Assembly (NCBI GenBank): GCA_017307505.1
Contig: JAFKEE010000021.1
Span: forward strand, 93,949 to 157,948
Source of the DNA: Acidobacteriota bacterium
GTDB lineage: Bacteria; Acidobacteriota; Terriglobia; Bryobacterales; Bryobacteraceae
DNA: 64,000 nt
Direction of reading: 5' to 3'
Shown here: positions 29,904 to 57,028 of the stretch, piece by piece
Layout: each line of letters begins with the position of its first letter
Numbering within the stretch: position 1 is the stretch's first letter
Translations under genes and position numbers: made by a program
The notes under the pieces: model-generated
What the model saw: only the letters and a program-made list of their open reading frames with translations
Told to the model about the DNA's origin: nothing
The model's database searches: none

Positions 29904-29910
29904 AGAATCC

Positions 29911-31386: not shown

Positions 31387-31398
31387 AGGTAAGTCACA

Positions 31399-32325: not shown

Positions 32326-32337
32326 GAAGGAAAGGCC

Positions 32338-37402: not shown

Positions 37403-37418
37403 AGGAGAAGCACCAGTC

Positions 37419-39695: not shown

Positions 39696-39700
39696 ACGCC

Positions 39701-40870: not shown

Positions 40871-41463
40871 TGCAGGCCGTCACGGCCATTCTGCTGGCTG
40901 CCGGAAACGCCTCCCGCATGGGTGCGCCCAAACAGCAGTTGGACTATGGCGGAAAGCCGCTGTTGCGCCACGCTGCCGAAACGGCCCTGGCTTCGCAATG
41001 CAACACGGTGATTGTGGTGCTCGGCGCCAATGCCGGCGAACTGGCGCCGCTGTTGGACGGCCTGGCCGTCACAGTCGTCGTGAATCCCAGATGGTCTGAG
41101 GGGATGGGCACTTCCATTCACACAGGGGTGCAAGCAGCGGCGCAGGGTGGGGCCGAGGCCGTTCTACTGACCCTGGCCGACCAACCGCTGGTCACAGCGG
41201 ACTTCCTCGATCAACTGATCGATCTTCACGCGGAGACCGGCCAGCCAATCGTTGCCGCCCGCTACGCCGGCACGGTCGGAGTCCCCGTGCTCTTCGCACG
41301 GCCATACTTTGATGGCCTGGAATCGCTGCTTCCAACGCAGGGCTGCAAAAAATTGATCGTGGCAAACGCAGACAACGCTCTTCTGATCGATTGCCCGGAG
41401 GCTGAGTTCGACGTTGATACGCCGGACGACTATGGGCGGCTGCAGGCCCTGTTGAAGGGCTGA
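40870..41463 (+). CDS. MocA-like nucleotidyltransferase for molybdenum cofactor
   Basis: A 197-residue protein whose ATG overlaps the xdhC-like stop. The nucleotide-binding signature is AILLAAGNASRMGAPKQQLDYGGKPLLRHA, followed by LTLADQPLVTADFLDQLI and a C-terminal DVDTPDDYGRL. This is the MobA/MocA transferase pattern; MocA adds CMP to the molybdenum cofactor to give the MCD form used by hydroxylases with a Tat-exported or CO-dehydrogenase-type subunit. The position in this operon supports cytidylylation, but GMP transfer cannot be excluded from sequence alone. Confidence 0.88.
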   Translation: MQAVTAILLAAGNASRMGAPKQQLDYGGKPLLRHAAETALASQCNTVIVVLGANAGELAPLLDGLAVTVVVNPRWSEGMGTSIHTGVQAAAQGGAEAVLLTLADQPLVTADFLDQLIDLHAETGQPIVAARYAGTVGVPVLFARPYFDGLESLLPTQGCKKLIVANADNALLIDCPEAEFDVDTPDDYGRLQALLKG

Positions 41464-41507: not shown

Positions 41508-42323
41508 TCAAAAGAACAGCTGCTCGGCCGTCTTCCCAAGCATCCAGGACTTGTCCTCGCTACGGAGGAACGGCAACCCCTCGGCCAGCAGGGCAAGCGA
41601 GTCCGAGTAAGTGTGGCCGTCCTGGATCTGAAACGGGCAGTCGCTACCCCACAGCAGGCGCTGCGGCCCGAAGGCGTCGAACACCTGTTGCAGGAACGGC
41701 AGCAGGTCGTGATACGGCGCCCGCCGTTGGCCCAGGGCATAAAACGCCGACACCTTCACATACACCTTCGGGTGCTTTGCAAGGGAGCAGAGTTGCCGCC
41801 TGTCCTCCGGCCGGATCACTCCATCCACACCGATACGGCCCAGGTGATCGACGACAACCGGCGTCTCCGGATGCCTCTGGCACAGGCGGTCCAGCGCTTC
41901 CAGGGCGTGCGGGTTGACCAGCGGGCAGACCGCCAGTTGTTCCTCGGCGGCGCAGCGCCACATCGACCCCATCCCCGGATCCGCCAGCCACTCTTCGGCG
42001 GACGACTCCGTGTGGATGCGGAAGCCCCTTACACCGTGCCGCGCGAGTGCCAGCATGGCCGCGCCCACCTCGGGCGTGCTCCAGTCCACCACGCCGATTG
42101 CCCCGAACACACCAGGGTGAGCACGCAGGCAGTCCAGCATGAACGAGTTGTCGCAGCCGTAGAAGCTCATCTGGACCAGCACCGCTCGCGCCACACCATT
42201 GGGGAGTGAGTGGCGAAAGAGTTTCTCCGGCGGGAAATGCAGCGGAGCGAACTCCGTACCGGGCCAAACACGCGGGTATCGATCACAGTCATCGGTCCAC
42301 ACGTGAACATGGGCGTCGATCAT
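41508..42323 (-). CDS. Amidohydrolase-2-family metal-dependent hydrolase
   Basis: A 271-residue TIM-barrel protein. The ATG at 42323 is chosen because the metal motif DAHVHVW then sits at residues 3-9 as in the family; a longer frame lacks conserved content. Further features are TPVVVDHLGRIG near residue 155 (metal His) and LLWGSDCPFQI (conserved Asp) near 230. Such enzymes hydrolyse lactones, such as rhamnono- or fucono-lactone, or act as decarboxylases. The divergent MFS permease 49 bp away suggests a small sugar-acid or lactone module. Confidence 0.85.
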   Translation of the reverse strand: MIDAHVHVWTDDCDRYPRVWPGTEFAPLHFPPEKLFRHSLPNGVARAVLVQMSFYGCDNSFMLDCLRAHPGVFGAIGVVDWSTPEVGAAMLALARHGVRGFRIHTESSAEEWLADPGMGSMWRCAAEEQLAVCPLVNPHALEALDRLCQRHPETPVVVDHLGRIGVDGVIRPEDRRQLCSLAKHPKVYVKVSAFYALGQRRAPYHDLLPFLQQVFDAFGPQRLLWGSDCPFQIQDGHTYSDSLALLAEGLPFLRSEDKSWMLGKTAEQLFF

Positions 42324-42372
42324 ATTGCTTCTGGGAGGAAGACCCCTTAGTATACCCAGGTACCCCTCGCTC

Positions 42373-43632
42373 ATGCCCTTTTCCCCATTCCATTCCGCAA
42401 ACGGCATCCTTGTCCTCCTCATCGTCTCTATCGCGATCAACTATGTCGATCGAGGCGCGCTCTCTGTCGCCGCGCCGCTGGTCTCGAGCGAACTGAAACT
42501 GACCACATCCCAGATGGGGCTGCTCTTCTCAGCCTTCTTCTGGAGCTACGCCAGCTGCCAGGTGGTGGGCGGCTGGCTGGTGGATCGTTACCCGGTCCGC
42601 TGGGTATACGCCGGCGGATTCCTGCTGTGGTCCCTGGCCACTGCGGCCGTCGGCCTGGTCGGCAGCCTCCCTGCCCTGTTGGTCACGAGATTCCTGCTCG
42701 GGGCCGGTGAGAGCGTCGCCTATCCGGCCTGCTCCAAATTCCTGGCTCGTGAATTCCCTGAGGAACGCCGTGGCTTTGCGAACGCCGCCATCGACGCCGG
42801 CACGAAGCTCGGGCCCGCGCTCAGCATCCTGCTCGGCGGGCTTGTCGTCGGCCGGTTCGGCTGGCGTTCCCTGTTCGTGATCGTGGGCCTGGGCAGCCTC
42901 TTGTGGCTCATCCCTTGGTTCGCCTGGACCAGCCGCGGCAGCCGCATCTCCCCAGACGCCACGGAGCAGGGGCCGGGCTGGCTGCAACTGCTGCGGAAGC
43001 GCCAGATGTGGGGCACGGCCCTGGGCATGTTCGCGCTTGGATACGCCTGGTATTTCCTCCTCTCCTGGCTGCCCAGCTACCTGGTCCGCGAGCGCGGCCT
43101 CTCCACCGCCGACATGTCCTTCCTCGGCTCCATTCCGTTCTGGGGCATGGCCGCCGCCGCGCTGCTGGGCGGCTGGAGTTCAGACGCCTGGATTCGCGCC
43201 GGGGGCGATCCGAGCCATGTCCGGCGCCTCTTCATCGGGGGCGGGCTGCTGCTGTGCGGCATGGCCTTGCTGCCTGCCGCCCTCGTGCAGGACGCCACTG
43301 TGAGCATCGCGCTCGTCACTCTTGCCTGTCTCTGCCTCGGCCTGTTCACCTCCAATGTCTGGGCGGCCACGCAGACGCTCGCCGGACCCAGCGCTGCGGG
43401 CAAATGGACCGCTATCCAAAACACCGTCGGCAACCTAGGCGGCGTCGTCTCTCCCCTGGTCACCGGTTGGATCGTCGACGCTACAGGATCCTTCCTGCTC
43501 GCCTTCGCCGTCGCTTCCGGCATCCTCTTCGCCGGCGCCGCGGTCTACCTGGCCATGGTGACGCCGGTGCAGCCCGTGGCCTGGCAGGAGACACCACCGG
43601 CCGCGAAGGCTGCTACCGCAAGCCGGCTTTGA
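42373..43632 (+). CDS. MFS permease, anion:cation symporter (sugar-acid) type
   Basis: A 419-residue, 12-helix protein from the ATG at 42373. The early motif NYVDRGALSVAAPLVSSEL followed by MGLLFSAFFWSYASCQVVGGWLVDRYPVRWVYAGGF is typical of the ACS (hexuronate/glucarate/galactonate) family, as is the GAGESVAYPACSKFLAREFPEERRG loop. It probably imports an organic acid such as a sugar acid with protons. It is transcribed divergently from the amidohydrolase gene, and its last 20 bp overlap the convergent glycosidase-like gene. Confidence 0.88.
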   Translation: MPFSPFHSANGILVLLIVSIAINYVDRGALSVAAPLVSSELKLTTSQMGLLFSAFFWSYASCQVVGGWLVDRYPVRWVYAGGFLLWSLATAAVGLVGSLPALLVTRFLLGAGESVAYPACSKFLAREFPEERRGFANAAIDAGTKLGPALSILLGGLVVGRFGWRSLFVIVGLGSLLWLIPWFAWTSRGSRISPDATEQGPGWLQLLRKRQMWGTALGMFALGYAWYFLLSWLPSYLVRERGLSTADMSFLGSIPFWGMAAAALLGGWSSDAWIRAGGDPSHVRRLFIGGGLLLCGMALLPAALVQDATVSIALVTLACLCLGLFTSNVWAATQTLAGPSAAGKWTAIQNTVGNLGGVVSPLVTGWIVDATGSFLLAFAVASGILFAGAAVYLAMVTPVQPVAWQETPPAAKAATASRL

Positions 43633-45778
43633 GAACCGCCCGGCACCAAAGAATCTTTTCGCGTACATCCTGCGGCAGGTAAAAGTACTGCAGCGAGGCT
43701 TCGAAACCGACTCGTGGATCCGCTTCGCAAATCGGCAGGAACTGCTCGGCGATCTGCAACTCGCGCTCGACCAGCGTCCGCAGACGCCCCGCGCTGCCCG
43801 GCTTCTCTCGAATGCTGTGAATCTCCACCTGATTCGCGATGCTCTCAAAGTACAACTGGCCGGCCACGTGAATCCGCTGATCCGCCTGCGCCTTGGCACC
43901 ACAGGCCCGAGCCACGGGCTCGAATGCGCGCACACCCTCTCTCCAGGCCGCGGCCATCCCGCGAAACGCCTGGCTGACCGCTTCCGGGCCGTACGGCTGA
44001 GTCCATCCCAAATTATCGAAGCTGTTCAGGATCTTCGGCCGCTGGCCGGATGGCTGGAGCCAGAGAGGATGCGCGGGGCCCTGCTGCACCACGCTCGAAT
44101 AGACCAGGCTGTTCGAGTAGGGGTAATCAGAAAACGCCCGCGAGAAGATCGACCACGCCTTCCGGGCACCTTCCACTCCGGCTCGCCCGTACCGCTGCTC
44201 GGCCGCCCGCGTCAAGGCCTCTTCCACGCTAGGAACTTTCTCACCAAAGAACTCACGGGCCACCAGCCAGTTGGCGCTCGGCCACGTGCCCAGGGTCCAC
44301 GAGAGCATCGCACCCTGGACGCCGCTTCTCCGCAGCGCCGCGCATTTCGCCGCGATGAGATCGGGCACGGGAATGAATGGCAGAAGTCCGAGCTCCCAAC
44401 TATTCCCGATCTGTACCTTGGCCATAGCACTCAGCCCGCGCTCTTTTGCCTGTGCGATGTGACGTTCCGCACGAGGCGATGGTCCTGGAATCGAAAGCGA
44501 GTACTCATCGATCAGCGTCCGGCGGCCCATGCGAACGGCCGGCGTGCCGCGTTCGAAATCCACCTGGAGCGTCACGTCCTGTGGCAGCGCCGCGATCGTC
44601 TCCCGTTGTGGATCATCTTCCACAACGCCCCAGCTCCAATCCCAGGCGTGAATTCGAACCTGCGGCGCAACACTCTGCGCACCCTGACGGATCTCGTCCA
44701 CCACCTCACCGATCACGCTGGCCGCCGAACGCCGGCTGCAGCGCGGGCAGGACGTCTTCCGGCGGAGGGAATAGCAGTTGGTCGTGTTCTCGGATGCCGT
44801 GATGAGAATCAGGCCGGCCAGACGCGGTGCCTTCTCCATCAACTGCCGTACGGCCGCCCGCAACCATTGCCGCACGGGCTCTGTACTCGTGCACAAGGAC
44901 GTCAACCCGTCGCCCGGCCGCCCGGCATCGCCCCGCAGTTCAGGATGCGCATCGAAGAAAGCAGTCGGCATCGCTCGCGGCTCATTCAGGTAGAGATACA
45001 CGCCCAGGCCGTGAGCGGCACTGCGTTCGATCAGGCCATTGAGCCTCTGGAGCCGGAGACCCGCTTCTTTACCGTACCCGGGCAGCATCGGGTGAACGGT
45101 CAACTCCCGTAGCAGTCCGTGCAGCCAGAGCCCGTTGAGACCCTGCTGCTTCAGAGACTCCAGAACTTCATCCGGATAGTAACCATCGAAATCCGGATCG
45201 CCCAGCACATCCCCGTATACCGCGGAATACGGGAAGCCGATGCGCGGCTCGAAAACCACACGGCCGGCCCGGGCCGGATCCCCCGGCATGTCGCGCTGCA
45301 GACTCCGTGTGAAATCGAACCGTGCTACGGGTTCAGCCGCTCCGCGAATGGCATAGTCGAGGCCCATGCGCCGAGCCTCCTCGATGCGGATCCTCCGGGC
45401 TGCCGGCTTTGCGCCAAGGTGTCCGTTATAGAACGCGTCCTCCGCCAGTAGCGCCGTGATCTCCTCTTCGGACATGTTCACCAGGACGGTCAACTGCTCC
45501 ATGGGCACAAAGGTCCAATTGCGCCGCAGGACCTGAAAGCGTTGGCGCCGGGCGTGCCGCTGGTCCGGCTCTCGCGGCGTCAAGCCCATCTCCCGGGCGA
45601 GTGGAACCACAGCGGAACTTGGGCACGACAGAGCCTTGGCGATGCGCTGCAACGGCACGAGGTCCCAGTTCCGCCAGACCAGCTGATGAGCGAGAGTGGC
45701 GAACTGCGGCAATGGCCGCTCCGGCGCTTGCGCCAGCAGCGGGGCAGTAAGCAACCCGGTAAATTCGCGGCGTCTCAT
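43613..45778 (-). CDS. Exported glycosidase-like TIM-barrel protein with N-terminal RNW repeats (short paralogue)
   Basis: A 721-residue protein from the ATG at 45778 that overlaps the permease stop (ATGA). A short Arg-rich signal-like start (RRREFTGLLTAPLLAQA) resembles a Tat signal. Residues ~25-125 hold two similar units beginning VWRNWDLVPLQRIAKAL and LRRNWTFVPMEQLTVLV, each followed by a helix-turn-helix-like stretch. The TIM-barrel part (~180-520) has LYLNEPRAMP (Glu266), TASENTTNC (Glu330) and CPRC (344-347), then HAWDWSWG. These are shared with the paralogue at 50030 and suggest a retaining-type catalytic pair and a metal or disulfide site. I cannot name the family or substrate. Unlike its paralogue it lacks the ~100-residue GH20-like beta domain. 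Confidence 0.75.
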   Translation of the reverse strand: MRRREFTGLLTAPLLAQAPERPLPQFATLAHQLVWRNWDLVPLQRIAKALSCPSSAVVPLAREMGLTPREPDQRHARRQRFQVLRRNWTFVPMEQLTVLVNMSEEEITALLAEDAFYNGHLGAKPAARRIRIEEARRMGLDYAIRGAAEPVARFDFTRSLQRDMPGDPARAGRVVFEPRIGFPYSAVYGDVLGDPDFDGYYPDEVLESLKQQGLNGLWLHGLLRELTVHPMLPGYGKEAGLRLQRLNGLIERSAAHGLGVYLYLNEPRAMPTAFFDAHPELRGDAGRPGDGLTSLCTSTEPVRQWLRAAVRQLMEKAPRLAGLILITASENTTNCYSLRRKTSCPRCSRRSAASVIGEVVDEIRQGAQSVAPQVRIHAWDWSWGVVEDDPQRETIAALPQDVTLQVDFERGTPAVRMGRRTLIDEYSLSIPGPSPRAERHIAQAKERGLSAMAKVQIGNSWELGLLPFIPVPDLIAAKCAALRRSGVQGAMLSWTLGTWPSANWLVAREFFGEKVPSVEEALTRAAEQRYGRAGVEGARKAWSIFSRAFSDYPYSNSLVYSSVVQQGPAHPLWLQPSGQRPKILNSFDNLGWTQPYGPEAVSQAFRGMAAAWREGVRAFEPVARACGAKAQADQRIHVAGQLYFESIANQVEIHSIREKPGSAGRLRTLVERELQIAEQFLPICEADPRVGFEASLQYFYLPQDVREKILWCRAVLKAGLR

Positions 45779-46767
45779 GCGGCCATCCTGTTCGAAACGC
45801 CCAGGCCCAGAATGGCCAGGCACAGGAGCCCCACGCCAATCCATAGCCGGCGCAGCGCGGACTGCGGCGCCCCCCGCCACTCGCCGGTCACGATGCCAAG
45901 CACATTGGCCGTCATCACCATGGAACCCATCAGCACCGACCAGCCGAACGAAGGACCCATGCTGCCGAGTTGCCGGGTCCCGGCCCCATACAGGACAAAA
46001 CCCAGCATCCACAACACGCCCATGGCAACACCCAGCAACAGGTTCCGGCCGGCTCCGGCTGTGGTGAACAGGCTGGCGCTGCGTTGCTGGAACAGCTTGA
46101 AGCCGGTGTAGCCCGCGTTACACAGGAACAAGGACACCGTCAACAACGACCACACCACATTCGGCGCAAAATCGGGGGAGACTCCGAATGCGACGGCCAG
46201 ATCAATGATCGGTTTTCCCAGTACCAGCCCGATGTTTCCGCACGAAGACAGAAGCCCGGAGAGGATACAGAGCAGCACACCCACTCCGTAGCGCGGCTTG
46301 CCTTCGACAGCTTCCCGCCACCGGCCCGCCAGCGAGCAGACCGCGACACCGCCCAACATCACGGCCAGCGAGACCAGCGTCAACACCAGCACCTCGGTTC
46401 GCGGGGGAGCCTCATTCAGGACCAACAGCGGCACCAGGGTTCCGCTCGTCGCCGCCACTCCCAGGATCACAGCAAACCCGATGGACAAGCCCAGCGCATC
46501 CACGCCCAGCCCAAAGGTCAGCGCGCCAAGCCCCCACAGCAGCCCCATCGCCATGACCAGACTGATCCGCGACTGCCCGGCCGCCTGGTAGATCTGCCAC
46601 ACATCGGGAGCGGTCATGGCCACAAACAGCCAGGGGCAGACCAGGTAGGCAGTGCACGCGAAGACCAGCCAGCCGTTCTCCCACTTCCAGCCGCGCATCA
46701 GCTTCATGGGCGCCATGAAGCCGCCCTGGCACAGTCCCGCGGCCAGCACCAACAGCCAGCCTGTCAT
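45775..46767 (-). CDS. RhaT-like (L-rhamnose/proton symporter family) sugar permease
   Basis: A 330-residue, ten-helix protein; the ATG at 46767 overlaps the aminotransferase stop (ATGA). The N-terminal LAAGLCQGGFMAPMKLMRGWKWENGWLVFACTAYLVCPW and later LLWGLGALTFGLGVDALGLSIGFAVILG match the RhaT family of drug/metabolite-superfamily sugar transporters. It probably carries the sugar or sugar acid released by this operon's periplasmic enzymes into the cell. The family includes L-rhamnose and fucose-type substrates, but no certain prediction can be made here. Confidence 0.88.
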   Translation of the reverse strand: MTGWLLVLAAGLCQGGFMAPMKLMRGWKWENGWLVFACTAYLVCPWLFVAMTAPDVWQIYQAAGQSRISLVMAMGLLWGLGALTFGLGVDALGLSIGFAVILGVAATSGTLVPLLVLNEAPPRTEVLVLTLVSLAVMLGGVAVCSLAGRWREAVEGKPRYGVGVLLCILSGLLSSCGNIGLVLGKPIIDLAVAFGVSPDFAPNVVWSLLTVSLFLCNAGYTGFKLFQQRSASLFTTAGAGRNLLLGVAMGVLWMLGFVLYGAGTRQLGSMGPSFGWSVLMGSMVMTANVLGIVTGEWRGAPQSALRRLWIGVGLLCLAILGLGVSNRMAA

Positions 46768-47882
46768 GCCCCCAACACTTTCCGAAGGGCGTCCACCAGC
46801 AGCCGGATGTCCGCATCGTCGCTGTAGTAGTGAACAGACGCCCGCACCCGTCCGTCTCCACCCCAAACCACGACACCATGCTCACCCAGCGCCCGCATTA
46901 CCCGGTCGCCCTGAGGATGCTCGAACGAGACGATGCCTGAAGTGAGATCGTCACCGGCGGGCGTCAGCAAAGGCAGTCCCATAGCGGCAAGCTCGGCTCG
47001 CAGATGGCGAGTCAATTGGTCCGCTCGCTTCTGCTCCACATCGAAATCCAGGCTGAGCAGCCATTTCAACGAAGCGGTCATCGCATAGAGTGCGGCGAAA
47101 TTGGGCATCCCGGCGACCAGGCACGCCGCGCCCGGCTTCAGCTCGTAGGCCCCTGTTCGAACGGCGCCCATGGCATCTTCCACCGAATACCAGCCGACCC
47201 CCGCCAGCGCAAACTTCTCACGGAGCAAAGGGGACATGTAGGTCACGGCCGCTCCATGCAAACCCAGCAGCCATTTGAAGGTGCTGGCCATCAGGAAATC
47301 GACGCCGGCCAGCGGAACACGGCAGCGCCCCAGCGCCTGCGTCGCATCCACGCACAACACGCCGCCCACCGCATGGACGGCTTCGCCCAAGCTCTGAGTA
47401 TGTGGAAACCAGGCGCCCGTCTTGTAGCTCACCTGGCTCACGGTCACCAGGCGCGTCCGGTTGTCGATTGCACCGATCAGGTCCTCCAACCGCAGGGCGC
47501 CGTCCCGGGAAGCCACCACCTGCACGTCGACGCCTCGCTCGCGAAGCGCCAGCCACGGCAGCACATTGGAGGGAAACTCGAGATCCGTCGTCACCACCCG
47601 GTCGCCGGGCTTCCAGGGCAGCGACGCCGCCAGGATGTTCAATGCGTCCGAAGCCGTGGGCAGAAAGACCGTGTCCTCAACAGGCGCGCCCAATAAGGTC
47701 GCAGCCAGAGTCCTCGCCTCGGTTTCCACGGCGAAATGCCGCAACCGGCCAGGCGTCCCTTTTCCCTTCTCCCCCAGGTACTCCGCGACGGCTTCGCTGA
47801 CGCCGGGCGCCGGCAAGCCCTCCGCCGCTGTATCGAGATAACCGCCCAGGACGGCGCGAGGAAACAGTTCACGGCAGCTCAT
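46764..47882 (-). CDS. Class V aminotransferase (cysteine-desulfurase-like PLP enzyme)
   Basis: A 372-residue PLP enzyme beginning one base after the M20 gene stop. The PLP lysine is in ASTFKWLLGLHG, and the cofactor Asp/Gln region is GGVLCVDATQALGRCRV. The segments TVFLPTASDALNILAASLPWKPGDRVVTTDLEFPSNVLPW and RVRASVHYYSDDADI are typical of class V enzymes such as isopenicillin-N-epimerase-like and aminotransferase-like proteins. It acts in the cytoplasm on an amino acid or amino-carbonyl compound. Its presence in an otherwise carbohydrate-type operon suggests that an amino group is handled. Confidence 0.88.
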   Translation of the reverse strand: MSCRELFPRAVLGGYLDTAAEGLPAPGVSEAVAEYLGEKGKGTPGRLRHFAVETEARTLAATLLGAPVEDTVFLPTASDALNILAASLPWKPGDRVVTTDLEFPSNVLPWLALRERGVDVQVVASRDGALRLEDLIGAIDNRTRLVTVSQVSYKTGAWFPHTQSLGEAVHAVGGVLCVDATQALGRCRVPLAGVDFLMASTFKWLLGLHGAAVTYMSPLLREKFALAGVGWYSVEDAMGAVRTGAYELKPGAACLVAGMPNFAALYAMTASLKWLLSLDFDVEQKRADQLTRHLRAELAAMGLPLLTPAGDDLTSGIVSFEHPQGDRVMRALGEHGVVVWGGDGRVRASVHYYSDDADIRLLVDALRKVLGA

Positions 47883-47883
47883 A

Positions 47884-49020
47884 TCAGAATCCGCGGATAA
47901 TTTCTTTGTAGACGTTCACAGCCTGCAACACCTGCTCCATCGCTACATATTCGGCCGCCGTGTGTGCCTGATCAATCGAGCCCGGACCCATGACTATGCT
48001 AGGGATCCCGGCGCGCGTGAACTTGCTGGCATCACTGCCAAACGGCACTCCGGCCGGCTCGGAGGGAAGGTTCAGCCGTCCCAGTGCCTCCTGCGCCGTG
48101 CGCACAATATGGCTGTCGGGGGATGTCTCCATCGGCCAGTCTTCCAGGAGTGTGGTGTGTGTAATCTGCATGTCGGGAAAACGTTCCCGCAGGGTCTCCG
48201 ACAGCTGCTCATACTGGCGTTGGATCTCCGGCGGCGCTTCGCCCGGCACCAGCCGGCGGTCGATCTCCACCTGACACTGCTCGGGCACAATATTGACCTG
48301 CGCGCCGCCGCGAATCAGGCCCACATTCAGCGTCGGCTCACCCACCAGCGGATGCCGCAGGGTCCTTAACGAGGTGTCCCCCTCTTCCATCACTACGATG
48401 AGCCGAGCCATGCGGGAGATGGCGTTGATGCCCAGGTGAGGCGTTGAACTATGAGCGGCGCGCCCGCCAATGGCCACCCTCCAGCGCAAACAGCCTTTGC
48501 TTGCGACCACCAGCCGCAACTCTGTGGGTTCGGCAACAATAGCGGCGTCCGCCGTGAAATGCTCGCACAGATGGGCGGCTCCTCGATAGGTCGCCTCTTC
48601 ATCCATCGTGGCCGCCAGTACGACATCGCAGGAAGGAACGAATCCCTCCACATGGAGTTCCACCAGCGCATGCATCATTGCGGCCAGGCCGCCCTTGGTA
48701 TCGCAAGCGCCGCGGCCATAAATTCGGCCCTGCAGCATCGACGGCTCGAACGGCGGAGACACCATATTCTCCACGCCGGCTGTGTCGACATGCGCCTCCA
48801 GCAGTAGCCGGCGCGAACGGTCGCGGCCCTGCAGCGTCGCCAGGAGATTTGGACGCTCAGGGAAAACCTCCACCAGCTCCGCCGGAATCCCAGCGCTGGC
48901 AAAAAAGTCCTGGATCCAGGCCTGAATGCGGCCCTCGGGCTGCCCCGAGGCATAGGCCGGATTCACACTGTTGATGCGGATCAACTCCTGGAGAGTAGTA
49001 ATGACGGATTGTGGTCTCAT
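47884..49020 (-). CDS. M20-family metallopeptidase/deacylase (ArgE/DapE/carboxypeptidase G2-like)
   Basis: A 378-residue cytoplasmic enzyme whose ATG overlaps the oxidoreductase stop by one base. The metal-site motifs are LLEAHVDTAGV (His), GRGACDTKGGLAAM (bridging Asp), TMDEEATYRGA (Glu catalytic and ligand) and VAEPTEL; the dimerisation domain follows at about 175-285. Family members cleave N-acyl or peptide bonds to amino acids. In this operon it may release an acyl or peptide moiety from an imported conjugate, followed by the aminotransferase encoded next. Confidence 0.88.
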   Translation of the reverse strand: MRPQSVITTLQELIRINSVNPAYASGQPEGRIQAWIQDFFASAGIPAELVEVFPERPNLLATLQGRDRSRRLLLEAHVDTAGVENMVSPPFEPSMLQGRIYGRGACDTKGGLAAMMHALVELHVEGFVPSCDVVLAATMDEEATYRGAAHLCEHFTADAAIVAEPTELRLVVASKGCLRWRVAIGGRAAHSSTPHLGINAISRMARLIVVMEEGDTSLRTLRHPLVGEPTLNVGLIRGGAQVNIVPEQCQVEIDRRLVPGEAPPEIQRQYEQLSETLRERFPDMQITHTTLLEDWPMETSPDSHIVRTAQEALGRLNLPSEPAGVPFGSDASKFTRAGIPSIVMGPGSIDQAHTAAEYVAMEQVLQAVNVYKEIIRGF

Positions 49021-50033
49021 TACCCGACGGGGCTCCAGCTCTGCAATTCAACATCGCGGCCCAATTGTGCCGACTCCACCAGCGCCAGGGCCGTGCGCAT
49101 GGTGTTCGTTGCTTCTGCCGGAGTGATGGCGGCGATCCCCTGCCCGCTCGCCAGGCAGCGGTAGAAGTACAGCAGCTCATTCAACAGCGCGCCATGAGCC
49201 GCGCCATACATCCGGGTCTCATAGCCCGCGTCCGGCGCCGAATACCCTCTCTCTGTCCACACACTCAAGCCGGCTGGCTGCATCGCCAGCGACAGGCTGC
49301 CCAACTGGCCCGTGATCTGGAGCCCATCGTCCAGCCCGATGCCCGCCGCGTCCGGCAGCAGCCAGTTCGTCTCCACGCGCCCAATGGCGCCGCTGGCAAA
49401 CTCGAGAATGCCCATCACCCAGTCAGGATTCAGCGTGGAATGAACCTTCCGTTCGAAGCCTCGAACCCGCACCACGGGCGACCGGTCGAGGCTCAGCAGG
49501 ATATCGATGTCGTGGACACAGTTGCAGAGTGCGGGATGCGTGCGCTCGTACATGGAAAAGCCGCCCCGCATCCGGCCGCGCCTCGCACTCATGGCGACAA
49601 TCCGGCCGATCCGCCCTGCCGCGGTCTCCTCCCGCAGCACGGCATAGCGAGGATCGAAGCGCAGCAGATGACCGACCATCAGCGCGCGGCCCGACGCTTG
49701 CGACGCCTCGGTCATCGCCGCACAGTCTTCCAGTGAAGTGGCGAACGGCTTTTCCACCAGGACATCCTTGCCCGCCTGCAAAGCCGCAATCACGGGCTCG
49801 CGGTGGCAGTGCTCCGGAGTCGCAACATGGACCACGTCCACCCCAGCGTTGAGCAACTCCTCTAAACTGCGCGCCACCACCGGAATCTGGTACTTCGCGG
49901 CCAGCGCGGACGCGCGAGCCACATCCAGATCGAACACAGCCGCCACCGTCACACCCGGCACGGCCTGCAGCGCCGAGAGGTGGCTCTCCCCGAATAGGCC
50001 GCAGCCCACCAGCCCCGTTCGAAACTCCCTCAT
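49020..50033 (-). CDS. Gfo/Idh/MocA-family oxidoreductase
   Basis: A 337-residue NAD(P)-dependent enzyme overlapping its neighbours at both ends (ATGA upstream, TAATG downstream). The Rossmann motif is GLVGCGLFGESHLSAL and the family lysine is in DVLVEKPFATSLED. The C-terminal domain contains CNCVHDIDILLSL and the usual beta-sheet face. Members oxidise or reduce sugars, inositols or amino-sugar derivatives. No signal peptide is present, so it acts in the cytoplasm on the imported product. Confidence 0.9.
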   Translation of the reverse strand: MREFRTGLVGCGLFGESHLSALQAVPGVTVAAVFDLDVARASALAAKYQIPVVARSLEELLNAGVDVVHVATPEHCHREPVIAALQAGKDVLVEKPFATSLEDCAAMTEASQASGRALMVGHLLRFDPRYAVLREETAAGRIGRIVAMSARRGRMRGGFSMYERTHPALCNCVHDIDILLSLDRSPVVRVRGFERKVHSTLNPDWVMGILEFASGAIGRVETNWLLPDAAGIGLDDGLQITGQLGSLSLAMQPAGLSVWTERGYSAPDAGYETRMYGAAHGALLNELLYFYRCLASGQGIAAITPAEATNTMRTALALVESAQLGRDVELQSWSPVG

Positions 50034-52564
50034 GCCTTCTCCTTCGTGGAACCGATCGGAGCACCCCCACGCAACTCTGCCATCACCTGCTCACAATTCA
50101 GCACCTTCTCCAGCAGGTCAATCGGCGTGTAGTAGTAGTGATTCGAAGCCTCGTAGCCGATCAACGACTCCTCGCGCACCACCGCATACTGCTGCAAGGC
50201 CAGCGCCCGCTCACGTTCCGCAATGGCAATCATCCGCGCCCGGATCTGCTTCCCGCGATCCGCCGCAGCGCCCGGAGCCTCATCGCGCAGCAGGTAGAAC
50301 TCCAGCTGATTCGCCGTACTCTCAAAATGCGTGTGGCAGGTGCGCGCAATCGCGAGTTCCAGCGCCGCCTCTTTGCCGGCCGGCCGGATCTTCTCGAGAA
50401 TCGCGACGCCCTCGCCCCAACGCTTCGCCATCTTCGCTATCAAGTCCCGCACCGTCGCCGCCGGATACGCGCCCTTCCACGATTTGTAGGCGTCATACGG
50501 AAACAGGATCATGCCCGGGGCCAGCCCTGTCGGCTGCAGGCGCAAAGGGTTGGCCGGTCCATGCTGCACTGGCAGGACGTAGATCGCCACCCCATACGGG
50601 AACGATTGGAACGCCTCACTGAATACCGTCCACGCGCGAACCGCTTCCTGGGCGCCCGCCGCCCCATACAGCCGCGTCGCCTCCTGCATCAGAATCTGGT
50701 CCCGCGACGGCCGCGGCTCAAACGCATACGCCGACGACGCGCGGAGATTGGACGAGGGATACCCGCCGCAGGTCCACGACGCCATCACGCCCGTGATGCC
50801 TTCCTTGGCCAGGTTCTCGCAGTGGTCCAGCACCAGCGGCAGCACCGGGATGTACGGCACCGCCGAGATCTCCCAGGTATTGTTGAACTGCGTCTTGGCA
50901 ATCGCGCCCAGCCCGCGTTCCTTGGCCAGTTTCCAGTTCCGGCTCGCGCGCGGGCCAGGCCCTACCACCGACATCGAATATTCGCCGACCTCCGTCTTCA
51001 CACCCCCACGGAACACAGGCTGCGACCATTCGCTGATGCTGATGATGCTCGTGTCCTGCGGCAGCTTCGGGATCAGGCTCTTCGCCATGGGCGTGCCCCA
51101 ACCCCAGTCATAGGACATAATCTCGGCGGTCTTGCTGTGCTCGCGCACCCCATCGCGCAGGGTCTGGATGAACTCGGCGATCGTCTCGGCGCCAGTCCTC
51201 TTCGAACAACGCGGGCACCCCGTAGCCTTCGGATCCCGGTCGCCCCACGCGCCGCCATGCGAGAAACAGTTCGTATGATTCTCTGACATCGTAATCGTCA
51301 GGAGCCCGCCCAGTCCCGGCGTCTTCTGAAACACATGGCCGATGCTCCCGCGCAGCCAGTCGCGGACTTCCTGCGTCGAGGTGCACATCGCAAAGACATT
51401 CTTGTCCTGCGTCCCCTTCAGCCCCGGATGCTTCGTAAAGAACTCGGCCGGCATCGCGCGTGGTTCGTTCAGGTATAGGTAGATGTTCAGGCCATAGCGC
51501 GAGGCCCGCTCCACCAGGGCATTCAGATTCCGGATCCGCGTCTCCCAGCCTTTGCCGAATTCCGGAAAGCTGCGGGCCGGAGCCAGCGTGTTCAATACGC
51601 CCTGGATCCAGACGCCATCGGCGCCGCTCTCCGCCGCGCGGTCCAGATATCCATCCGGCAACCCGGCCGCGTCACCCTCCATCAGCGGATCCCCATACAG
51701 CGCAAAGTACGAGTACAGGAACCGCGGCGCCCAGATCTCCTTCGTCGAGGTCTTGCCCGCCGGCCACTGCTGCTGGCTTCGCAACGCGTACAACCCGCGA
51801 ATGGCAGCCCGTTCCGTCGCCGCTGTAATGCGCGCCCCTTCGGTGGTAGGCTCCACGGTGAAACTGCCCGGGCCGCCGGCATCCGACAGCACAACCTCAA
51901 TGCGCTTACCGGAACCACCGGCTTTGCCCAAACGCCGCGCGGCGGCAGCCAACGCCGGCCGTCCCGCAGGCACTTGCACTTGCCAGCCGGGTCCTGCTTC
52001 GAGAGCCGACAACTGTTCGACAAATGCGAAGCGCGGCTGCCCCAGGTTCTTCACGCCCCCCGGCACGGCCCGGCTGAGACTCGTCCGGATCGCAGCGGCC
52101 TTCGCCCGTTCCTGGGCGCTCGGAGCCGCGTACCTCAACTCCGCGCACGCAGGCTTGGCCAGACCCAGCTTGTGCTCGAGAAAATCGTCTTCCTTCAGCG
52201 TGAACTCAAACCGCTCTGCATCCCAGCCCAACAACTGGATGATCTGCGCCTCCGGCAGCACATGCCAGTTCTGCTTGATCACCGTGATGTAGATCCGGCG
52301 CTGTGTATCCGCGCTGACAGGCCGCTTCGCCGGCAGGCCCATCTCCGCGCCCAGCCGAGCCAGGTCCGCGGGTTGCGCTTTCACCACTTCCGCCATCCGG
52401 TCCAGGTTCACCAGGTCCCAGTTCCGCCACACGAACTGATACAGGCGGTTGGGAAAATGCGGCTCCGGCACCGCGCGGACCGGAGGCAGCGCCGCATGTG
52501 CGCTGCCTCCCCAGGACCACAACAGTGCCGGTGGGACGGTCTTGAGAAATGTCCGCCGTTCCAT
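50030..52564 (-). CDS. Exported glycosidase-like protein with RNW repeats and GH20-type N-domain (long paralogue)
   Basis: An 844-residue protein with a Tat-like signal (MERRTFLKTVPPALLWSWGGSAHAA). Residues ~40-135 contain two RNW/QNW units (VWRNWDLVNLDRMAEVV; IKQNWHVLPEAQIIQLL) as in the short paralogue. Residues ~185-265 form a GH20 zincin-like beta domain (RIEVVLSDAGGPGSFTVEP...ATERAAIRGLYAL), present only here. The barrel (~280-640) has LYLNEPRAMP (Glu367), TMSENHTNCFSH (Glu428), CPRC (450-453) and SYDWGWG. It starts 3 bp after the TonB receptor stop and overlaps the oxidoreductase gene by 4 bp. Probably a periplasmic glycosidase of unknown specificity. Confidence 0.75.
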   Translation of the reverse strand: MERRTFLKTVPPALLWSWGGSAHAALPPVRAVPEPHFPNRLYQFVWRNWDLVNLDRMAEVVKAQPADLARLGAEMGLPAKRPVSADTQRRIYITVIKQNWHVLPEAQIIQLLGWDAERFEFTLKEDDFLEHKLGLAKPACAELRYAAPSAQERAKAAAIRTSLSRAVPGGVKNLGQPRFAFVEQLSALEAGPGWQVQVPAGRPALAAAARRLGKAGGSGKRIEVVLSDAGGPGSFTVEPTTEGARITAATERAAIRGLYALRSQQQWPAGKTSTKEIWAPRFLYSYFALYGDPLMEGDAAGLPDGYLDRAAESGADGVWIQGVLNTLAPARSFPEFGKGWETRIRNLNALVERASRYGLNIYLYLNEPRAMPAEFFTKHPGLKGTQDKNVFAMCTSTQEVRDWLRGSIGHVFQKTPGLGGLLTITMSENHTNCFSHGGAWGDRDPKATGCPRCSKRTGAETIAEFIQTLRDGVREHSKTAEIMSYDWGWGTPMAKSLIPKLPQDTSIISISEWSQPVFRGGVKTEVGEYSMSVVGPGPRASRNWKLAKERGLGAIAKTQFNNTWEISAVPYIPVLPLVLDHCENLAKEGITGVMASWTCGGYPSSNLRASSAYAFEPRPSRDQILMQEATRLYGAAGAQEAVRAWTVFSEAFQSFPYGVAIYVLPVQHGPANPLRLQPTGLAPGMILFPYDAYKSWKGAYPAATVRDLIAKMAKRWGEGVAILEKIRPAGKEAALELAIARTCHTHFESTANQLEFYLLRDEAPGAAADRGKQIRARMIAIAERERALALQQYAVVREESLIGYEASNHYYYTPIDLLEKVLNCEQVMAELRGGAPIGSTKEKA

Positions 52565-52567
52565 GCT

Positions 52568-55500
52568 TTAGAACTCCGCGCGTAGACCAAACTGGAAGCG
52601 CCGCGGATTGTTCTTGCCGAAGATCTTGCCGTAGTTCGGACTCACCAGCGACGTATTCGGCGTATTCCAGTTCTGGATGTTGAACACACTATAGGACTCC
52701 GCCCTGAAGTCGAGCCGCACCCGCTCCAGGTGGAACGACCGCGCCAGCGACACATCGTACGACTGCGTCGGAGGAGCCGTCAGGATATTCCTGCCCGCGT
52801 TGCCGAACTGGTTCGCCGGAGGAGCTACAAAGCAGTTCGTGTCGAAGTAGCGATCCATCGTTCCTCCGCCCAACCGGCCATCACACACACGGTTCGGCCG
52901 TGCCTTGGTGAAGGTCGCGGCCACATTCGGCCACGAGGTCGGCATGGAAAGCGAGAGCGGCAAACCGGACCGGTGCTGGATGATCGTCGACAACTGCCAG
53001 TCGCCCAGAACCGCGGCACCCAGCCCGCCCTGAGCAAAGGACTTGCCCTTGCCGAACGGCAGTTCATACACAATGCCCGTTGTGAAGGCATGCGTCTGGT
53101 CGTAGTCGGACCGGCCCCTGTCGAGTTGCGTGTTGCGCGCATCCTGGTTGTCCCATCCGCCGCTGTTCGACGAGAACAGGTCCAGGCTCTTGCTGTAGGT
53201 GTAGCTCGCGGTCAGGTCCAGGCCCTTCGACATGGTCCGGCGGACATGCAGGTAGGCGCCGTTGTACGAAGAGTTCGCACTGTTGCCCTGCAGCAGGATG
53301 TCGCTGAAGAAAGGATAGGGCCTGCGATCCTGCAAGGACTTCGGATTCGCGGGGTCGAACAGCGACGCCTGGTTCACGTTGTAAGGCGCCATCAGGTGGC
53401 GGCCCAGAAATGCGTTGTAGCCCGCGCTCAACAGCCAGCGCTCACCCAGCTGATGCTCCACTGAGAAGGTGGCCTGGTGGACGAACGACTGCGGAGCATA
53501 TGCGTCCTGAGTCACAAACAGTGTGCCCGGCGTGATCTCCCCAATCGGCGGAGCCGGGAAGATCTGTGTATCCAGACGAGCCGGAGTCAACGAAGTGGGA
53601 TCGTTCACCACGTTCGTGTTGTTCGTGAACGGCGGGCCGCCAAAGCCCAGCGAGGAGAACAGCTGGAAGTTCGCCATACCCTGCGTGTAATAGATGCCAT
53701 AAGCGGCGCGGATCGTCGTCTTGGGCGTCAGCAGGTAGGCCAGGCTCACGCGCGGGGAGAAGTTCGTCTTCTTCCAGTTCTTGAAGACGCCGCGCGGCAG
53801 GTCGCCGCTAAGCGTGCTGTAGTCCTGCTGGAAGTTCAGCGGATTCTTCAACACGAAGACCAGCTTGCCCTGGTTCTGGTCGAAGGCCACCATGCGGTTG
53901 TAGCGCTCCACCGGCGGCGTCCAGTAATCCCAGCGCAGGCCGAACGTCATCGTCAGGCGGCGCGACATCTTGATCTGGTCCTGAGCGAACCAGCCATAGT
54001 ACGTCGTATTCAGGATCGGAGCAAAGCCGGTCGGATTCCCGGCCGCCGACGCAAAGGCGCCCAGCACGAAATCCGCAATCCCTGCTCCGCCCGCACCGCC
54101 CGGAGCCTGTCTGGTGAATCCACCGTCATAGCTCAGGCTGCCGCGCGGATAGATGCCATTGTTCTGCGGATACTGTGATGGCTGAATCGTGAAGCCGAGA
54201 TCGATGGTGTGCCTTCCCGTGAAGAACGAGATGTTTTCGTTCACGCCCAGACGGGTGGTCGCCCGGTTCAGGTTGAAGATCGCCGTGCCCGGCACGCTTA
54301 CCCCGGTCACGCCCACATTGGGCAACCCGAAAAAGGCCGAGTTCCGGCTGATATTCTTCAGGCCCAGTTCGCTGCCGGCGATGTCCTGAGTCGTCGGCAC
54401 CGCCCCGTAGTTGGTCTCGGAACGGAAGAACCCGACCCGCAATTGATTCACGATCCGTCCGCCGATCGGCTGCGTGTACTCCACCGAAGCGGTCTGCCCC
54501 TTCAATGGCTGCGCGAAGCCGGCGAACGTCGACAGCCCGTAGGAGTAAGCGCCCACGTTGTCCCAGAAATACTTGAAGAACAACCGCCCGCTGGTGCCCA
54601 GCGACTGGTCGATGCGCGTCAGGTACTGCGTATCGTCATTGCGCTGCGATCCGAACACCGACAGGTTCGGCTGCCCGAACGCCGCCGCGCCCAGATTCGG
54701 CAGCGGGACATACTTCTTGTAACCCTGAGCAAACGGGCTCAGCAGGCTGGCCGGAATTCGATTCCCGGCAAACGGACGGCGCGTGTTGTTCGTGGTGTCC
54801 ACGTCGAATGGATTGTAGATGGTTTGCGGGTACTGCGAAAAGTCGCCCGCCCACTGAGCTTCCGTCGGCACGATCGCCTGCTGGTTGCTGCCCGAGCGCT
54901 GCCTCGTCACCTGGGCCGAAAAGAAGAAGAAGGTTCGGTTCTTCCCGTCGTACAGGCCCGGTATCACTACCGGACCGCCCAGTGTCGCGCCCGCCTGGTT
55001 GTAGACCAGCGGCGGAACCGCCAGCGCGCCGTTCGTCCGGGCATTCGTCACCTTGTTCTGCAGGAACCAGAACAGCGAGCCGTGCAGGTCGTTCGTACCA
55101 GCCTTCGAGCTCGTATACACTACCGACGGGGAACCGCCGAACTGAGCGGAGTCATAGCCCCTCACAATCCGGTAGCTCTGCAGTGCTTCGACAGACGGCT
55201 GGTACAACGCGCCGCCATAAATCGGATCCCGAACGTCGAAGCCGTCTTCCACAAAGCCCGTGAACTCCGGCGGGCCGCCTGAGATGTTCGCGCTAATCGG
55301 TTTGAAGACCGCGCCGCCCGTCTGCGACTGGCCAAACACCACGCTGCCGATGTTGCCGCCCAGGATGGGCGATACGCCCGGCGACAGGATCAATGTCGAT
55401 ATGTAGCTGCGGCCCAATGCGGGCAGTTCCACAAGTTGCTTCGAAGCAACCGTCACCGCCAGGGACGCATTCTCCGTCTGCAGCAGCGGCGAGGTCGCGG

Positions 55501-55873
55501 CCACGGCAATGCTCTGTTGCGAATTGCCGATCTGGAGCTGGAAATCGGCGCGCAGGTCCAACTGCTGCGTCAACTGCTGCGCCGAGCGGGTGGAGACCTG
55601 AAACCCTGCGCGCTCCACGGTGATGTCATAGATACCCGAGGGGATTCCGGTAAAGGTGTACTGCCCCTGGGTGTTCGTCTCTTGCGAGCGGGTGAAGCCC
55701 GTCTGTGTTTCCCTGATCGTGACCTGCGCCCCGGGCACCGCCGCGCCGGAGGCATCCGTCACGAATCCGTTCAGCGAACTGGTGATGACCTGCGCGGTAG
55801 CCAGGACGGTGAGGAAGATTACCAGCAGAAACAGCTGGGTTCGTTTGAGGAGAAGCTTCGGAATATGTTGCAC
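52568..55873 (-). CDS. TonB-dependent receptor heading the glycosidase/aminotransferase operon
   Basis: 1101 residues from a GTG with CAGGAG eight bases upstream. A signal peptide (LFLLVIFLTVLATAQ) precedes the carboxypeptidase-regulatory domain (NGFVTDASGAAVPGAQVTI), the plug (VELPALGRSYISTLILSPGV) and a barrel ending in GLRAEF. The plug sequence differs from the LPLNGR form seen in the other three receptors in this window, so the ligand is probably different. It is the first gene of the seven-gene operon ending at 43613, and a divergent LysR regulator gene lies 120 bp away. Confidence 0.92.
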   Translation of the reverse strand: MQHIPKLLLKRTQLFLLVIFLTVLATAQVITSSLNGFVTDASGAAVPGAQVTIRETQTGFTRSQETNTQGQYTFTGIPSGIYDITVERAGFQVSTRSAQQLTQQLDLRADFQLQIGNSQQSIAVAATSPLLQTENASLAVTVASKQLVELPALGRSYISTLILSPGVSPILGGNIGSVVFGQSQTGGAVFKPISANISGGPPEFTGFVEDGFDVRDPIYGGALYQPSVEALQSYRIVRGYDSAQFGGSPSVVYTSSKAGTNDLHGSLFWFLQNKVTNARTNGALAVPPLVYNQAGATLGGPVVIPGLYDGKNRTFFFFSAQVTRQRSGSNQQAIVPTEAQWAGDFSQYPQTIYNPFDVDTTNNTRRPFAGNRIPASLLSPFAQGYKKYVPLPNLGAAAFGQPNLSVFGSQRNDDTQYLTRIDQSLGTSGRLFFKYFWDNVGAYSYGLSTFAGFAQPLKGQTASVEYTQPIGGRIVNQLRVGFFRSETNYGAVPTTQDIAGSELGLKNISRNSAFFGLPNVGVTGVSVPGTAIFNLNRATTRLGVNENISFFTGRHTIDLGFTIQPSQYPQNNGIYPRGSLSYDGGFTRQAPGGAGGAGIADFVLGAFASAAGNPTGFAPILNTTYYGWFAQDQIKMSRRLTMTFGLRWDYWTPPVERYNRMVAFDQNQGKLVFVLKNPLNFQQDYSTLSGDLPRGVFKNWKKTNFSPRVSLAYLLTPKTTIRAAYGIYYTQGMANFQLFSSLGFGGPPFTNNTNVVNDPTSLTPARLDTQIFPAPPIGEITPGTLFVTQDAYAPQSFVHQATFSVEHQLGERWLLSAGYNAFLGRHLMAPYNVNQASLFDPANPKSLQDRRPYPFFSDILLQGNSANSSYNGAYLHVRRTMSKGLDLTASYTYSKSLDLFSSNSGGWDNQDARNTQLDRGRSDYDQTHAFTTGIVYELPFGKGKSFAQGGLGAAVLGDWQLSTIIQHRSGLPLSLSMPTSWPNVAATFTKARPNRVCDGRLGGGTMDRYFDTNCFVAPPANQFGNAGRNILTAPPTQSYDVSLARSFHLERVRLDFRAESYSVFNIQNWNTPNTSLVSPNYGKIFGKNNPRRFQFGLRAEF

Positions 55874-55947
55874 GGTGAGACTCCTGAATCCACGTGCCGG
55901 AAGGCCGACATCTCAGTCGAGTATGGGTTCAAGCTCTCTGTCAGTCC

Positions 55948-55976
55948 ATTAGAATATTCCGACAGCTCGTTCTAAT
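55948..55976. promoter_or_regulatory. Candidate LysR binding site between TonB receptor and lysR genes
   Basis: ATTAGAA (55948-55954) and TTCTAAT (55970-55976) are perfect inverted arms separated by 15 bp, a spacing compatible with the T-N11-A style recognition sites of LysR-type regulators. The site is 17 bp upstream of the lysR start and 75 bp from the receptor start, so one protein could control both directions. Confidence 0.55.
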
Positions 55977-55993
55977 TGTGATACAGATAATCC

Positions 55994-56971: not shown

Positions 56972-57028
56972 GGCCTTCGGAACAACCAGGGGGTGGCGAC
57001 CGTACAGGGAAACAGGAGCCGACACATT

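Follow-up and report, generated by a model that had tools for sequence, protein, structure and literature searches.

An operon of sugar and amino-acid enzymes in an Acidobacteriota genome: a candidate for oxidative breakdown of an N-acylated amino sugar

Genes and features of the locus

Seven genes, all on the minus strand, occupy positions 43613-55873 of the window (the whole 64,000-nucleotide stretch analysed here). In order of reading they encode an Oar-like outer-membrane receptor (52568-55873), an exported protein of an unnamed glycosidase-like family, here called GHa (50030-52564), a Gfo/Idh/MocA dehydrogenase (GFO; 49020-50033), an M20 deacylase of the ArgE/DapE group (47884-49020), a class V PLP enzyme (AT5; 46764-47882), a RhaT-family sugar permease (45775-46767) and a second exported member of the same unnamed family, GHb (43613-45778). 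The tight operon reported in the preliminary description is confirmed, as neighbouring genes either overlap or lie 1-3 bp apart: from the receptor to GHb the junctions are a gap of 3 bp, overlaps of 4 and 1 bp, a gap of 1 bp and two overlaps of 4 bp. All seven genes show a GC3 of 0.72-0.82, compared to 0.46-0.50 at codon position 2. The start of GHb is most likely the ATG at 45778 rather than the mechanical ORF start at 46012, and its N-terminus was judged by eye to be twin-arginine-like.

The locus extends beyond this operon. An MFS permease of sugar-acid type (PF07690) is encoded on the plus strand (mechanical ORF 42325-43632, likely start 42373), and the 3' ends of this gene and GHb share 20 bp; a lactonase-like amidohydrolase, missed in the preliminary description, follows on the minus strand (mechanical ORF 41508-42440, homologues suggesting a start near 42323); and a divergent LysR-type regulator (PF00126 and PF03466) lies on the plus strand at 55994-56953. 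The region between receptor and regulator (55874-55993) contains the palindrome GAATATTC and is likely an operator/promoter, given that its DNA is 95-97% identical to that of two genomes of the same genus (G005 and G006), compared to 79-90% for the surrounding genes. The position of the regulator is kept in both. Promoter and terminator scans returned sites no more numerous than in shuffles.

The receptor had been introduced as a TonB receptor. It is of the Oar-like type, with CarboxypepD_reg and OMP_b-brl_4 domains (PF25183, 8.7e-201, and PF13620); TonB_dep_Rec_b-barrel is matched weakly (31.7 bits, cut-off 27), and its listed Pfam matches include no plug domain. A 53% identical homologue in G312 adjoins GFO, GHa and cl13 genes. 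The RhaT-family permease scored 90.6 bits for PF06379 (cut-off 27) and has homologues (48-57%) in seven of 38 family loci, while the best NCBIfam model of the MFS permease was the D-galactonate transporter (237 bits, cut-off 395), its homologues (55-64%) adjoining module genes in six of the 38.

Among the cytoplasmic enzymes, GFO falls in the Gfo/Idh/MocA superfamily (PF01408, 1.3e-28; 100.5 bits against a cut-off of 24), and its E94-K95-P96 and H174/D175 are invariant across nine homologues. It stays under every listed equivalog cut-off, the best NCBIfam model being UDP-GlcNAc 3-dehydrogenase (134.6 bits, cut-off 450), and its nearest relatives are inositol 2-dehydrogenases and glycoside oxidoreductases rather than any known sugar 1-dehydrogenase. 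Its PDB matches include DgpA-type enzymes and a sugar 3-ketoreductase, and no signal peptide was seen by eye. The M20 protein belongs to the ArgE/DapE group (TIGR01910, 233.4 bits, cut-off 217.6) and lies below the ArgE equivalog TIGR01892 (240.5 bits against 297.7); H77, D79, D107, E141, E142, E164 and H353, which we take to be metal ligands and the catalytic Glu, are invariant across 15 homologues. The PLP enzyme (PF00266, 8.8e-42) is nearest to cysteine desulfurases and the cystine lyase C-DES, with a predicted fold like SufS (Z 42) and Lys203 invariant in 14 homologues; it reached 104.6 of the 475 bits set for SufS/CsdA (TIGR01979), and the same 14 homologues share no invariant Cys. Housekeeping roles as ArgE (M20), inositol dehydrogenase (GFO) and cysteine desulfurase (PLP enzyme) were rejected, all three lying under the curated cut-offs; the window moreover has its own IolG (469 bits), carried by an inositol catabolic locus about 8 kb from the lactonase-like gene. 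The latter belongs to superfamily PF04909 (131 bits), scored 85.1 bits (5.9e-24) for the L-fucono-1,5-lactonase model NF052480, below its cut-off of 400, and has a 57% identical counterpart adjoining the module in G014.

The glycosidase-like pair

GHa and GHb are paralogues (39% identity over 561 columns). Neither had a Pfam or NCBIfam match (for GHa, no Pfam family even at E 0.1), and a PDB sequence search with GHa gave no significant match. They represent a large glycosidase-like family, absent by name from the searched libraries, which counts 208 relatives in one genome collection, most of the family coming from phyla that are poorly represented in culture. A restriction of GHb to the genus was considered and dropped because of a 50% identical homologue in G334.

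In the AlphaFold model of GHa (pLDDT 85.5), residues 193-837 resemble GH20C, GH84 and GH67 (VIA Z 20-21; for the GH67 structure 1l8n, Z 20.1 and rmsd 4.8 over 482 aligned residues), from which the GHa model differs by an additional, apparently helical part at the N-terminus (about residues 30-190). By its predicted fold, it thus resembles families acting on N-acetylhexosamines or uronic acids. Profile comparison with GH67 was weak (hhalign 56.5% probability in local mode, nothing in global mode), as were the matches to PF07488 (GH67) in three of 16 family members, at best 0.055, GHa itself remaining unmatched. A true GH67 is present elsewhere in the genome. Placed by model position only, Ser427-Glu428 follow barrel strand 4, where GH20 enzymes have adjacent Asp-Glu and GH84 enzymes adjacent Asp-Asp; the weak profile alignment pairs Glu428 with the glutamate of the GH67 DSEG motif. 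Of 116 family members, 111 have Ser and 113 have Glu at these positions. Candidate catalytic residues of GHa are Glu428, Glu512 and Glu565.

Conservation across genomes

The seven genes are kept in order in G005 and G006, two of eight other genomes of the genus, with proteins 85-98% identical. As these and the window's genome are the only instances found, a widespread seven-gene unit was rejected. The core is shared more broadly. Members of the PLP and M20 clades lie within 7 kb of each other in 11 of 13 PLP-clade genomes from nine genera, and GFO lies within 7 kb of M20 or PLP in nine of 11 genomes; these clade counts leave out M20 matches of 36-39% identity in three genomes, GFO matches of 34-37% at four places and any PLP match under 46%. 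The preliminary description had suggested that the operon serves to import and degrade an amino compound carrying a glycosyl or acyl group, a proposal that is partly supported. A lack of co-conservation, which would speak against it, does not apply to the core, because GFO, M20 and PLP are co-conserved with partners across nine genera.

The MFS permease and the lactonase-like amidohydrolase belong to the module as well. Over 121 genomes, the lactonase-like and M20 genes occur together in 19, each alone in three and neither in 96 (phylogeny ignored), so that the lactonase-like gene accompanies the M20 clade in 19 of its 22 genomes. Within these 19, the two lie at most 7 kb apart in seven, and on different contigs or farther apart in 12.

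GHa and GHb are loosely attached to the module, the members of their family being otherwise mostly located elsewhere. In four of the 11 genomes holding the GFO clade, a member of the GHa family is found no more than 10 kb from it (GHa genomes, n = 23). Six of eight other same-genus genomes searched have a GHa relative, four of them with no partner gene in the stretch taken, two such stretches being whole short contigs. In 80 loci holding relatives of the glycosidase family from the genome collection, a search at E 1e-6 found M20 in none, the PLP enzyme in one (26% identity), GFO in five and RhaT in one; in these loci, some of them short, no clustered partner was common to more than eight, save the family itself and antisense ORFs.

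Related loci add further genes. In G014, an HpaI-type aldolase precedes a consecutive series of receptor, glycosidase, GFO, M20, PLP, RhaT and GntR genes, and in G295 such an aldolase follows GHa by 3 bp; it was found in two of 52 stretches searched and is absent from the window. So is a GH151 homologue, present at three module loci. In G344 this neighbour matched 6tvk with 387 bits over residues 50-702 of 704, i.e. with full-length homology to GH151; 6TVK is described as the GH151 enzyme ALfuk2 (PMC10154630). A kinship of the GHL6 neighbours with GH156 sialidase was considered but found no support in the literature consulted; GHL6 there matched the GH151 structure instead. A KdgK-like kinase near M20 in two of the 38 family loci (L166 and L167) was given no weight, being separated from M20 by about 4-5 kb and by intervening genes.

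Proposed pathway and alternatives

From the protein families, gene order, co-conservation and predicted fold we infer each reaction and the substrate of the reading that we tentatively prefer, while rating it at somewhat less than an even chance: an operon for uptake and oxidative breakdown of an N-acylated 2-amino-2-deoxy sugar, without sugar phosphorylation. A glycoside would be taken up by the outer-membrane receptor and cleaved in the periplasm by GHa and GHb, after which the RhaT-type and MFS permeases would bring in the free sugar or sugar acid. GFO would oxidise C1 to a lactone, to be opened by the amidohydrolase (41508-42440) into a 2-acylamino-2-deoxy-aldonate, chemically an N-acyl alpha-amino acid. 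From this, M20 could strip the acyl group; the amino group could then be removed by the class V PLP enzyme, either by elimination to a 2-keto-3-deoxy acid or by transamination to a 2-keto acid; elsewhere in the family, the HpaI-type aldolase would cleave the 2-keto-3-deoxy acid. The lactonase-like gene would thus give a chemical reason for sugar and amino-acid enzymes to share an operon. If true, this offers a rule for the odd combination of genes: once oxidised at C1, an N-acyl amino sugar has become an N-acyl amino acid, and both kinds of enzyme can work in one pathway.

A 6-deoxy L-sugar is a possible substrate, N-acetyl-L-fucosamine being one example. The L configuration is the one that M20 and class V enzymes usually accept; the acid of such a sugar would be L-configured and would suit both, and the GH151 fucosidase homologue or HpaI-type aldolase at some related loci hints at a 6-deoxy sugar. 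A search of the open-licence literature, which shows little, found no report of N-acetyl-L-fucosamine catabolism by such genes. The preferred reading is supported by the gene order kept in three genomes, the co-conserved core, the retained active-site residues of M20 and PLP, the modelled fold of GHa, the aldolases of G014 and G295 and the GH151 homologues. Against it weigh the rarity of the aldolase, its absence and that of GH151 from the window, the separation of lactonase-like and M20 genes in most genomes having both, the greater similarity of GFO to other oxidoreductases than to a known sugar 1-dehydrogenase and the proximity of the PLP enzyme to SufS. A NagA-like gene in the genome, below cut-off (195 bits against 226), also counts against it, as the usual route may exist; the counts over ten genomes (NagA over cut-off in three, NagB in none) were weighed neither for nor against. 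A more far-reaching reading seems rather improbable: that N-acylated 6-deoxy L-amino sugars (for instance N-acetyl-L-fucosamine) are oxidised non-phosphorylatively to N-acyl L-amino acids, which enzymes of ordinary amino-acid metabolism then process, and that the sugars are supplied by a widespread, new family of glycosidases cutting bacterial polysaccharides at linkages of N-acyl amino sugars.

So read, the locus works like the ong cluster, the oxidative chitin pathway of Pseudoalteromonas prydzensis, but is distinct from it (PMC9537276; PMC12017989). Both have a receptor, a periplasmic glycosidase and an inner-membrane permease; ong deacetylates a 2-acetamido-aldonate and deaminates the product with a PLP enzyme to a 2-keto-3-deoxy acid, as the present locus would. 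The deacylase, however, is M20 here and a D-aminoacylase-like amidohydrolase (OngB-type barrel) in ong; the PLP enzyme here is of class V, different families provide the permeases and regulators, the dehydrogenase and lactonase-like gene would form the acid intracellularly, and a kinase is absent from the locus. The oxidative L-fucose route (L-fucose dehydrogenase, L-fucono-lactonase, L-fuconate dehydratase) shares the dehydrogenase and an amidohydrolase-type lactonase; L-fuconate dehydratase was unmatched among the locus genes tested, and M20 and PLP would occupy its place. A known aminotransferase-type PLP enzyme converting an amino-aldonate into a 2-keto-3-deoxy acid is a precedent for the last step, although it uses a phosphorylated D-form and is not among the matches listed for the locus enzyme.

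Among the alternatives, a sugar or cyclitol conjugated to an N-acyl amino acid or amide fares best, although we consider it unlikely. The operon would then combine two short routes, with glycosidases, GFO and lactonase-like enzyme acting on the sugar part and M20 and PLP on the amino-acid part, as for mycothiol-like molecules (inositol, glucosamine, N-acetylcysteine). Enzymes of the ArgE/DapE group and class V normally use ordinary amino acids, and the kinship of the PLP enzyme with cysteine desulfurases and C-DES, the resemblance of GFO to inositol dehydrogenases and the nearby inositol locus agree with this; yet the PLP clade lacks an invariant cysteine, the inositol locus has its own IolG, and the tight lactonase-M20 association is unexpected for separate parts.

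That these steps act instead on N-acetyl-D-glucosamine, or on the C1-oxidised derivative that chitin yields, is improbable. D-glucosaminate is a D-amino acid handled by the D-aminoacylase-like OngB, whereas M20 usually takes L; OngB, OngC, KdgK, an SSS permease and an RpiR-type gene were unmatched among the operon proteins, and the GH151 and RhaT homologues point toward 6-deoxy sugars. In favour are the predicted fold of GHa, which resembles GlcNAc-cleaving families, and the ong pathway itself, which proves the logic in Pseudoalteromonas (PMC9537276, PMC12017989).

That GFO acts as a glycoside 3-dehydrogenase/3-keto reductase loosening glycosidic bonds, with M20 and PLP merely scavenging acyl amino acids released from the same material, would agree with its best model and its DgpA-type and 3-ketoreductase matches, but is very unlikely given its apparent lack of a signal peptide, the lactonase-like gene left unexplained, and the absence among matches of the operon proteins of the AP_endonuc_2-type partner usual in 3-keto sugar routes.

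Outside these comparisons, M20 was detected in one of 149 Planctomycetota genomes at E 1e-80, where a weak GFO-like gene (32%) lies about 140 bp downstream.

Operon layout and flanking genes

Seven genes are found on the minus strand between 43613 and 55873, encoding, from 5′ to 3′, an Oar-like outer-membrane receptor (52568-55873), the glycosidase-like protein GHa (50030-52564), a Gfo/Idh/MocA dehydrogenase (GFO; 49020-50033), an M20 deacylase (47884-49020), a class V PLP enzyme (46764-47882), a RhaT-family permease (45775-46767) and a second glycosidase-like protein, GHb (43613-45778); the identities other than those of GHa and GHb were assigned by Pfam. The tight seven-gene operon proposed in the preliminary description was confirmed, all junctions being overlaps of 1-4 or gaps of 1-3 bases (in order: gap 3, overlap 4, overlap 1, gap 1, overlap 4, overlap 4). 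The locus extends past these genes. Below GHb, the end of an MFS permease gene (42325-43632, plus strand) overlaps that of the GHb gene by 20 bp, followed by a divergent lactonase-like amidohydrolase gene (41508-42440, minus strand), which comes closest, among named models, to L-fucono-1,5-lactonase, though its 85 bits fall short of the cut-off of 400. A LysR gene (55994-56953, plus strand) is divergently oriented above the receptor, and all three neighbours keep their positions in two genomes of the same genus (G005 and G006). The 120-bp LysR-receptor intergenic region shares 95-97% identity with those genomes, compared to 79-90% for the surrounding genes, and holds a GAATATTC palindrome, which makes it a likely operator.

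Beside LysR, a 331-residue protein (56993-57988, plus strand; 92% identity in G006) had no match in Pfam and NCBIfam searches. A molybdenum hydroxylase subunit, an XdhC-type protein and a MobA-like nucleotidyltransferase (37335-41463, plus strand) directly precede the lactonase-like gene. The window also carries a myo-inositol catabolic locus (24117-33369, plus strand) with a LacI-type regulator, KduI/IolB, IolC, a Cgl0159-like aldolase, an AP_endonuc_2 protein and a true IolG; IolC (350 bits) and IolG (469 bits) score above their cut-offs.

Conservation of the core and its variable glycosidases

The clades of the three core enzymes were searched in the same 121 family genomes (identity floors: PLP 46%, M20 49%, GFO 43%) and occurred in 13 (PLP), 22 (M20) and 11 (GFO). 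The PLP and M20 genes are at most 7 kb apart in 11 of the 13 PLP genomes, spanning nine genera, and GFO lies within 7 kb of either in nine of its 11. The co-conservation that the preliminary description proposed to test therefore holds for the core, and the module is real and extends beyond the genus, whereas the exact seven-gene order is restricted to it. The lactonase-like gene was found in 22 genomes, 19 of them with M20 and three without; three other genomes had M20 alone and 96 neither (Fisher p ~3e-16, uncorrected for relatedness of genomes), and the two genes lie within 7 kb in seven of these 19. At least two module genes were present in 17 of 38 family loci fetched around module genes or GHa relatives, with homologues of RhaT in seven, MFS in six and a GntR-type regulator in seven. 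In two genomes of another genus (L187, L188), MFS separates the lactonase-like gene from M20, the lactonase-like gene and MFS diverging just as they do in the window. DUF1549/DUF1553 cytochrome-type proteins adjoin module loci in two genomes (L187 11154-13859; L154 5712-9586, where DUF1501 is also a neighbour).

GHa-family genes occur in 23 of the 121 genomes, but only four of the 11 genomes with the GFO clade have one within 10 kb of it: the window's, G005, G312 (GHa-GFO-PLP-RhaT) and G325 (GHa-GFO-metallo-beta-lactamase-fold protein-M20-PLP-RhaT). Elsewhere the module is accompanied by a GH151 fucosidase homologue, a GH42M/GHL6 protein or cl13, a protein distantly related to GHa and GHb. The G344 locus encodes a full-length homologue of the fucosidase 6tvk, named GH151 ALfuk2 in PMC10154630, and 62-64% homologues of the G344 protein are present in G334 and G312. 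The inner core is thus constant and the outer glycosidase variable, as would be expected if different polymers release one monosaccharide. In G312, a BNR-repeat protein whose fold family is sialidase-like (L189 3032-4090) adjoins a second GHa relative, and a 53% homologue of the window receptor follows nearby. Two genomes have, 6-8 kb from a GHa relative, a DHDPS-family protein with an export-like start (L011 2134-3117; L015 418-1551).

An unnamed glycosidase-like family

The most solid new element is the family of GHa and GHb, which matched neither Pfam at E 0.1 nor NCBIfam at E 0.01 and, at 39% identity over 561 columns, are paralogues. A genome-collection scan gave 284 pattern matches, and a relative was encoded by 208; the best 80 of these, for the most part MAGs, belong to Hydrogenedentota, Planctomycetota, Verrucomicrobiota, Armatimonadota-type, Acidobacteriota and other records. 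Among 116 members, Glu428 and Glu512 are each conserved in 113, and Glu565, Cys433, Cys450 and Cys453 in 114 each. Residues 193-837 of the GHa AlphaFold model (pLDDT 85.5) matched GH20C (Z 21.1, rmsd 6.5, 510 aligned), GH84 (Z 21.0, rmsd 9.1, 468 aligned) and GH67 (Z 20.1, rmsd 4.8, 482 aligned), which on this predicted structure are ties; Foldseek matches include GH89. A local profile alignment with 20 same-order GH67 proteins, of 181 columns and 56.5% probability, has at its end Glu428 opposite the DSEG-motif Glu of GH67, the catalytic acid of that family; global alignment with these proteins gave no match. We regard GHa and GHb as an unnamed family distantly related to the GH67/GH20/GH84 group, and do not assign it to any one of the three.

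Proposed route and candidate sugar

Judged by eye, GHa and GHb both start with a twin-arginine-like export signal and none was found in GFO, M20 or the PLP enzyme, which would place the former in the periplasm and the latter in the cytoplasm. The preliminary description pointed out the unusual mix of sugar and N-acyl amino-acid enzymes in this operon, and one chemical idea could join them: C1 oxidation of a 2-acylamino-2-deoxy sugar and lactonase opening would yield an N-acyl alpha-amino acid, to be deacylated by M20 and deaminated by the PLP enzyme. M20 retains all the metal ligands and the catalytic Glu of M20 enzymes. Lys203, the Schiff-base residue, is retained in the PLP enzyme, in which no Cys is invariant, making a desulfurase role unlikely. 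HpaI-type aldolases cleave 2-keto-3-deoxy acids; one heads the G014 module, with an unknown gene and an SDR, and another lies 3 bp after GHa in G295. Their occurrence in only two of 52 stretches, and not in the window, counts against the route. The oxidative route is chemically coherent, but we infer its every reaction and regard it as tentative, somewhat more doubtful than probable.

The GH151 homologues, the RhaT-family permease and the fuconolactonase-like amidohydrolase hint at a 6-deoxy sugar. Most M20 and class V enzymes act on L-amino acids; D-GlcNAc or D-GalNAc would give acids of D configuration and L-FucNAc one of L configuration, which favours, without proof, an L-series amino sugar. 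The nearest solved relatives of GFO, inositol dehydrogenases and glycoside oxidoreductases, are neutral to slightly unfavourable to this reading.

As outlined in PMC9537276, the same logic is followed for chitin by the ong pathway of Pseudoalteromonas, which has a receptor, a hexosaminidase, a permease, a deacetylase acting on the sugar oxidised at C1, a PLP deaminase and a KDG kinase. Its deacetylase is described in PMC12017989 as a D-aminoacylase-like amidohydrolase, in contrast to the M20 enzyme here, so by its deacylase the window locus stands outside that pathway and would embody the same idea, put together independently. There is a precedent for the loss of ammonia: PMC9529869 outlines an aminotransferase-type enzyme that removes it from a phosphorylated amino-aldonate. 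A related route from glucosamine is predicted in a haloarchaea genome paper (PMC12343721).
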